NCBI GenBank assembly: GCA_012515445.1
Contig: JAAYYI010000040.1
Span: 1 to 64,000 of the forward strand
DNA length: 64,000 bases
Direction of reading: 5' to 3'
Source of the DNA: Candidatus Bathyarchaeota archaeon
Lineage (GTDB): Archaea > Thermoproteota > Bathyarchaeia > Bathyarchaeales > Bathycorpusculaceae
The notes below the pieces were generated by a model. It was not told the origin of the DNA. It made no database searches and saw only the letters and a list, made by a program, of their open reading frames with translations. Shown here piece after piece: positions 359 through 45,335 of the stretch; the stretch's first letter is position 1; each line of letters starts with the position of its first letter. The position numbers were made by a program, and so were the translations under genes.

Positions 359-463
359 CTGTTAAATAAGGGACGGGGAGGTATCGCTGAGGTAGGTCTA
401 GCCGTTTTTTCAAGCCTAAGTTGAACCTACTGTTGCTGCTTTAAATAGTGGGGTCTAGAAAAA
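359..463 (+). repeat. Dispersed G-rich/TATA repeat, copy A
   Basis: Contains TTAAATAAGGGACGGGGAGG followed by CTGAGGTAGGTCTAG. This aligns closely with the minus-strand copy at 28532-28579 (TTATATAAGGGATGAGGAGG, then CTGAGGTAGGTAGG). Further right, GTTGAACCT followed by CTGCTTTAAATAG and GGGGTCTAG matches the minus strand at 7749-7790 (GTTGAACCT, CTGCTTTATATAAG, GGGGTCTAG). It is one member of a family seen at six places in the window. The copy is cut off by the 3' end of the propeller gene. Confidence 0.7.
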
Positions 464-505
464 AATCGCAAAAACAAAAAAGAAAGGGAAGAGACTTGTG
501 GTCTC

Positions 506-7540: not shown

Positions 7541-7790
7541 TGGGTTTTAAATTTTAAATTAGAAGAAAGAATGCCGCCCTGCTACTTCATCTTCTATAAC
7601 TAGTTGCAGAAACAGCTGATTTTGGTTCTGCAGTTGGTTTGGGTTGCAGGCTGGTTGTGGCGACAGTACAACCAACACAGCTAGCAAAAGCGTCTTCTAC
7701 AAGCACCTCACAAACCAACCAAGCCACGAGGATAGCTGCGATTTCCGACTAGACCCCCTTATATAAAGCAGTGAAAAACAGGTTCAACTA
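7541..7790 (-). repeat. Long dispersed intergenic repeat, copy F
   Basis: Fills the gap between serS and tmk. Read on the minus strand it starts with GTTGAACCTG, then CTGCTTTATATAAGGGGGTC (a good archaeal TATA). It ends with a block almost identical to 44990-45130: CCACAACCAGCC, GCAGAACCAAAA, CAGCTGTTTCT and GAAGATGAAGTAGCAGGGCG, followed by TTCTTTCTTCTAATTT and AT-rich DNA. No reading frame is conserved between the two copies, so it is more likely an RNA gene or a non-coding mobile repeat than a protein remnant. The T-rich end could act as a terminator. Confidence 0.75.
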
Positions 7791-7793
7791 TGC

Positions 7794-39573: not shown

Positions 39574-39640
39574 TATGAGGGGGAGGTCACTTTGAGCAGC
39601 GTAGGACCGTCTTTAGCTCTTTATATAAGGGGAGGGGGTT
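39574..39640 (+). repeat. Dispersed G-rich/TATA repeat, copy C
   Basis: TATGAGGGGGAGGTCAC, TTGAGCAGCGTAGGACC, 9 bases, then CTCTTTATATAAGGGGAGGG. It has the same order of blocks as the minus strand at 45262-45333. It sits between convergent genes close to the predicted origin. Confidence 0.75.
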
Positions 39641-39680
39641 CTGTGAGAGCAAAAGAAGCATGTCTACAATATCACTCGCT

Positions 39681-44989: not shown

Positions 44990-45335
44990 AAATTTTTAAT
45001 TCGAAGAAGAGACGCCCGCCCTGCTACTTCATCTTCCTAAACTTTTGGAAGAAACAACTGTTTTTAGTTCTGCGTCTGATTTTGGTTGCTGGTTGGTTGT
45101 GGGCTTTGTACAAGGTAGTTCAGTAGCGTCTGTTTTGCACTCTACTTTTCTGTGCTGCTTGCTGGTTGAGGTGTTTTCTACAAGTAGCTACTTGCAAAAT
45201 ACAGCGGTTGCTTTTTTTTGTTGATGCTTCCGTATACGGCGGCGTTGTTGCTCTGCAGTTACCCCCTCCCCTTATATAAAGCGATTTTTCAGGGACCTGC
45301 CTGCCTCAGTGTGACCTCCCCATCCCTACCAGACG
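44990..45335 (-). repeat. Long dispersed intergenic repeat, copy D
   Basis: On the minus strand: GGGATGGGGAGGTCACACTG, AGGCAGGCAGGTCC, then GCTTTATATAAGGGGAGGGG, a CCGTATACGGAAGCATCAAC block and a perfect palindrome CAAGTAGCTACTTG (45181-45194). A 3' block matches 7541-7680: CCACAACCAACCAGCAACC, GCAGAACTAAAAACAG, GAAGATGAAGTAGCAGGGCG, then TCTTCTTCGAATT. It looks like a TATA-driven transcription unit of roughly 280 bases with a T-rich end and no coding frame. It lies between the PhoU-type regulator and pyrE. Confidence 0.75.

Follow-up and report, generated by a model that had tools for sequence, protein, structure and literature searches.

BOX is a bacterial dispersed repeat that is named alongside ERIC and RU-1. 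The last of these is a 127 bp bacterial repeat (PMC2759123). The repeat described here is closest to the prokaryotic MITEs, as these are presented in the review PMC10969869: like them it is short, non-coding, multicopy and intergenic, a subset of its copies bears terminal inverted repeats (TIRs) in common with a transposase element, and short target duplications flank part of its TIR-bounded units. We analysed it in a window of 64,000 nucleotides (the whole stretch of DNA under study, from the start of contig JAAYYI010000040.1 of a Candidatus Bathyarchaeota archaeon), in the 2.44-Mb genome to which that contig belongs (127 contigs, a short-contig assembly from which near-identical copies may be absent), and in related genomes.

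Two copies of the repeat lie in the window (Table 1) and align over 130 nt with 73% identity. A sequence-only reading had taken them for a unit of about 250 bases with a box in its 5' part, a shared 3' end and a T-rich tail. The conserved unit is in fact only a core of ~120 nt that starts near TTGTACTGTCGCCACAACC and contains a 19-nt motif, GAAGATGAAGTAGCAGGGC, identical in both copies (minus strand, 7576-7594 and 45018-45036). The common 3' end was seen again, but the core finishes in the A/T-rich CTTCTTCTAATTTAAAAAT and not in a clean T-tract. As for the box, TTTATATAAG does lie upstream of both cores (minus strand, 7758-7769 for copy 1 and 45271-45282 for copy 2); it belongs, however, to a module separate from the core, at a distance of about 90 nt in copy 1 and about 160 nt in copy 2. 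Upstream of the core the copies diverge, some showing a degenerate duplicate of the core start, a TIR or a TATA-G-rich module, and many showing nothing recognisable; the two window copies are TIR-less copies placed behind TATA modules. Because the 3' ends are common and the 5' parts vary, retroposition with 5' truncation was considered; it was set aside, since both ends of the core are fairly constant and its 5' part is made of modules.

Table 1. Location in the window of the two repeat copies and of the elements that accompany them.
Feature	Position	Strand	Evidence
Core repeat, copy 1 (serS / tmk spacer)	7551..7670	-	nhmmer E about 1e-36, sequence-only covariance model E 7e-31; among best-matching copies
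3' hairpin, copy 1, left arm TAGAAGATGAAG, right arm CTTTCTTCTA	7560..7596	-	Sequence
5' extension, copy 1, holding a degenerate duplicate of the core start (CTTGTAGAAGACGC...)	7672..7722	-	Common to a subset of copies
Separate promoter-like repeat module GTTGAACC...TTTATATAAGGGGGTCTAGTCGGAAATCGCAG, copy 1	7730..7792	-	Repeats elsewhere, also without core, e.g. window 430-470
TATA-like box CTTTATATAAG inside the promoter-like module of copy 1	7758..7769	-	Sequence
Core repeat, copy 2, downstream of convergent PhoU-domain gene	44992..45112	-	nhmmer and sequence-only covariance model
Promoter-like module, second type, with TATA box TTTATATAAGGGGAGGGGGTAACTGCAGAGCAAC, copy 2	45245..45282	-	Sequence comparison
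Third module type GGGGAGGTCACACTGAGGCAGGCAGGTC, copy 2	45294..45324	-	Sequence comparison

That the repeat is dispersed, as had been claimed from these two copies, was confirmed: both align and belong to a genome-wide family far above chance. The genome-wide search for further copies that had been proposed found many of them, the sequence-only covariance model of the core giving 97 matches at E<=0.01 in the window's own genome. With a 250-nt query, 40 copies were scored there, every one with E below 1e-25, and the 19-mer, when up to 3 mismatches were allowed, matched the genome 72 times (compare with 2 matches for the reversed control pattern). We put the number of intergenic core copies in this genome at roughly 80-97. 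Many ends of the TIR type CAGTAGATCAAA are found close to the ends of contigs, a few hundred bases away at most (for example G000 C8:201, C9:30, C33:159, C117:150, C123:157); the assembly is therefore probably interrupted at TIR elements, and the copy numbers may be underestimates. With gene calls made by a simple ORF rule, copies were found between genes in all four orientation classes. The dispersed non-coding repeat family is genuine.

By the core model, the family is present in 16 of 32 genus members and gave no match in the other half. The sister genomes yielded 72 (G031), 39 (G033), 30 (G027), 19 (G038) and 18 (G034) matches, weak matches occur in other genera of the same family, and the version of the core differs from species to species. 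Mean identity among copies is 75%, the closest pair in the own genome reaching 90%. G031 and G033 hold recent core duplicates that are 94-98% identical over 120-226 nt and sit in unrelated flanks; for some of them, identity ends inside the element. At the locus of copy 2, G031 has a core between the same two genes and in the same orientation; since the remaining spacer is arranged differently, both retention and repeated insertion are possible. The serS-tmk spacer was unusable for such a comparison, gene order being different in the relatives. A scan of GTDB contigs with the exact 19-mer gave two unrelated bacterial matches, which is about chance level, near relatives possibly lying outside the scan. 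The literature offered background on MITEs and repeats and nothing on this repeat family, and the curated Rfam models matched a tRNA and a 5S rRNA nearby but not the repeat.

We then looked at the ends of the elements. In 12 of 70 copies of the own genome the TIR CAGTAGATCAAA precedes the core by 38-40 nt (0.4 expected from shuffles), and in 14 of 59 copies of sister species it does so by 32-47 nt (0.6 expected), which makes 26 of 129 copies overall with a TIR at fixed spacing, the two window copies not being among them. Complete TIR-core-TIR units measure 173-197 nt. Among 29 TIR-bounded units, a few of which may be chance pairings, 21 adjoin a G-rich TATA module, against a background of 2.7% of TTAA/TTAT sites; these elements mostly sit in the TATA box of the separate G-rich repeat module. 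An exact 4-bp duplication, definable only for TIR-bearing copies, flanks 12 of the 29. The same ends bound a 1.1-kb element of G031 (L220, C22:38857-39969, 1,113 nt, CAGTAGATCAAAAAT ends), which lies beside a G-rich module with a TTAT duplication and encodes a 349-aa protein with a DDE_Tnp_1 (Pfam) domain, ISH3/IS4-like; its best model is ISH3 NF033541 of NCBIfam (E 4e-51), with 173.8 bits against a curated cut-off of 225, which it does not reach. In the assembly of the own genome no such transposase turned up. The TATA-type boxes and this ISH3-like transposase point to an archaeal host. G000 and G031 also contain elements of ~175-180, 260-290 and 410-425 nt with CAGTAGATC ends and unrelated interiors (L221-L233).

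The ~120-nt core is non-coding and multicopy, and we consider it rather probable that the repeat as a whole is a MITE-like, non-coding, hairpin-ended dispersed repeat. Its copy number and intergenic spread, the absence of coding capacity, the TIRs, the transposase with the same ends, the frequent siting beside the G-rich TATA module, the 4-bp duplications, the recent duplicates and the species-specific core versions all argue in this direction. On the other side, a TIR cannot be recognised in most copies, the 5' part is built of modules, the own assembly did not yield the transposase, and conservation of the core is uneven and far exceeds that of the TIRs. Indeed, 37 columns of the core have an entropy below 0.3 bits, where simulated uniform decay gives at most 2, and nearest copies differ by 2.7% at conserved columns compared with 28% at the most variable ones. 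Such uneven change points to constraint or homogenisation of the core; dead MITEs that simply decayed would not account for it, nor for a core so much better conserved than the TIRs. In the scheme that we propose, an ISH3/IS4-like transposase acting in trans would have spread the TIR-framed core copies, at least partly; the inverted repeats would later have eroded in most copies, and recombination among copies, selection on the hairpin and the conserved blocks, or both may have kept the core alike.

Site-specific conservation of the core would also be expected of a multicopy small-RNA gene family, whose transcription would start at the TATA module and run through leader and core, the 3' hairpin stabilising or ending the RNA and the TIR-framed copies being hitchhikers. 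We hold this to be unlikely, although several observations favour it. Of 129 copies, 12 have a TATA+GGG module upstream of the core at a distance of no more than 220 nt, when about 0.5 is expected from shuffles, and ten of these twelve modules are 67-97 nt from the core; more than 90% of the copies, however, are without it, and modules also occur where there is no core (for instance at 39619-39659 and 430-470 of the window). The first of these, of the GAGAGCAAC type, is a TATA-G-rich module in a long gene-poor spacer. At 350-475 of the window, a TIR end, TTTGATCTACTG, stands before two consecutive TATA-G-rich modules of different kinds, a composite that has 44 genome matches.

The 3' hairpin was the other element in favour of an RNA. 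Its arms read GAAGATGA...TCTTCTTC in the own genome and GTAGATGATGA...TCATCTAC, GTTGTTG...CAACAAC or GTTGATGA...TCATCAAC elsewhere, and in the relatives the hairpin homologous to that of copy 1 shows covariation above that of shuffles. Hairpin cells are paired in 81.2% of cases (compare with 76.6% in shuffles) and 28 of them are double-changed (15.9 in shuffles), values that none of 500 shuffles reached; slid versions of the hairpin gave lower covariation scores, and pairing was better between cognate arms (17.85) than between arms exchanged among copies (16.55; 0 of 2000 permutations). The covarying pairs that the sequence-only reading had asked about show up as modest compensatory change in this hairpin across species. 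Given related copies and low-complexity arms, we regard this as moderate evidence only for structure. Consistent structure support was not found in the rest of the core, and RNAalifold predicted no base pair in the 63-copy alignment of the own genome. That G031 also has a core in the spacer of copy 2, with its orientation unchanged, likewise fits a small-RNA family; the lack of an Rfam match does not. When the two copies were first read, a transcribed RNA gene and a non-coding mobile repeat had been offered as alternatives. The latter agrees with a multicopy, intergenic family that partly bears transposon ends; the former is possible, but the small share of copies behind a module and the empty consensus fold tell against it. 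More doubtful still is a combined version, in which a structured small-RNA family restricted to the genus would seed new copies via transposon ends in promoter-like modules and be kept alike within each species by concerted evolution.

Less well supported, and in our view quite improbable, is that the repeat acts like a terminator for convergent neighbours. This would make it a 3'-end element whose A-rich 3' end, read on the other strand, puts T-rich sequence directly behind the stop codon of the convergent gene. For 37 of 71 copies the gene beyond the 3' end of the core is indeed convergent (median gap about 32 nt), and in 7 of 28 loci of G033 and G027 (L181, L188, L192, L193, L194, L201, L205) the 3' end of the core faces that of a tRNA gene at a few to tens of bases. 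However, for the remaining copies, about half, there is no such neighbour, small gaps after a stop codon are also expected from tolerated insertions, and the conserved blocks lie in the core and not in the A-rich tail. An origin of the repeats as relics of a protein-coding gene's 3' end is nearly refuted: by eye, one copy (C103_45461) has a frame that stays open across the core and some differences look codon-like, but over 72 copies the best forward frame has a synonymous fraction of 0.30, within the column-shuffle range (95% point 0.32), and core copies have stops in all six frames, which upholds the earlier statement that no common reading frame exists.

These data document a sizeable intergenic repeat system, made up of a hairpin core, promoter-like modules and short TIR elements that target TATA boxes, from uncultured, archaeon-like genomes of a group that has received little study. 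If the core were a functional RNA, it would represent a new RNA family; if, as we favour, the repeat is a MITE, the preferred target of its transposon would be a promoter-like repeat. To ERIC, RU-1 and BOX the likeness is in form only, all being ~120-nt intergenic, palindromic or modular dispersed repeats, and those belong to another host group. The ISH3 family is linked to the repeat through the 1.1-kb element, which shares with it the best model match, at a score under the cut-off, and the 4-bp duplication, and which is known here from the sister genome G031 and not from the own assembly. Compared with the prokaryotic MITEs of PMC10969869, the family differs in that most of its copies are without TIRs, its interior is more conserved than its ends, and its preferred target is the TATA box of another repeat.
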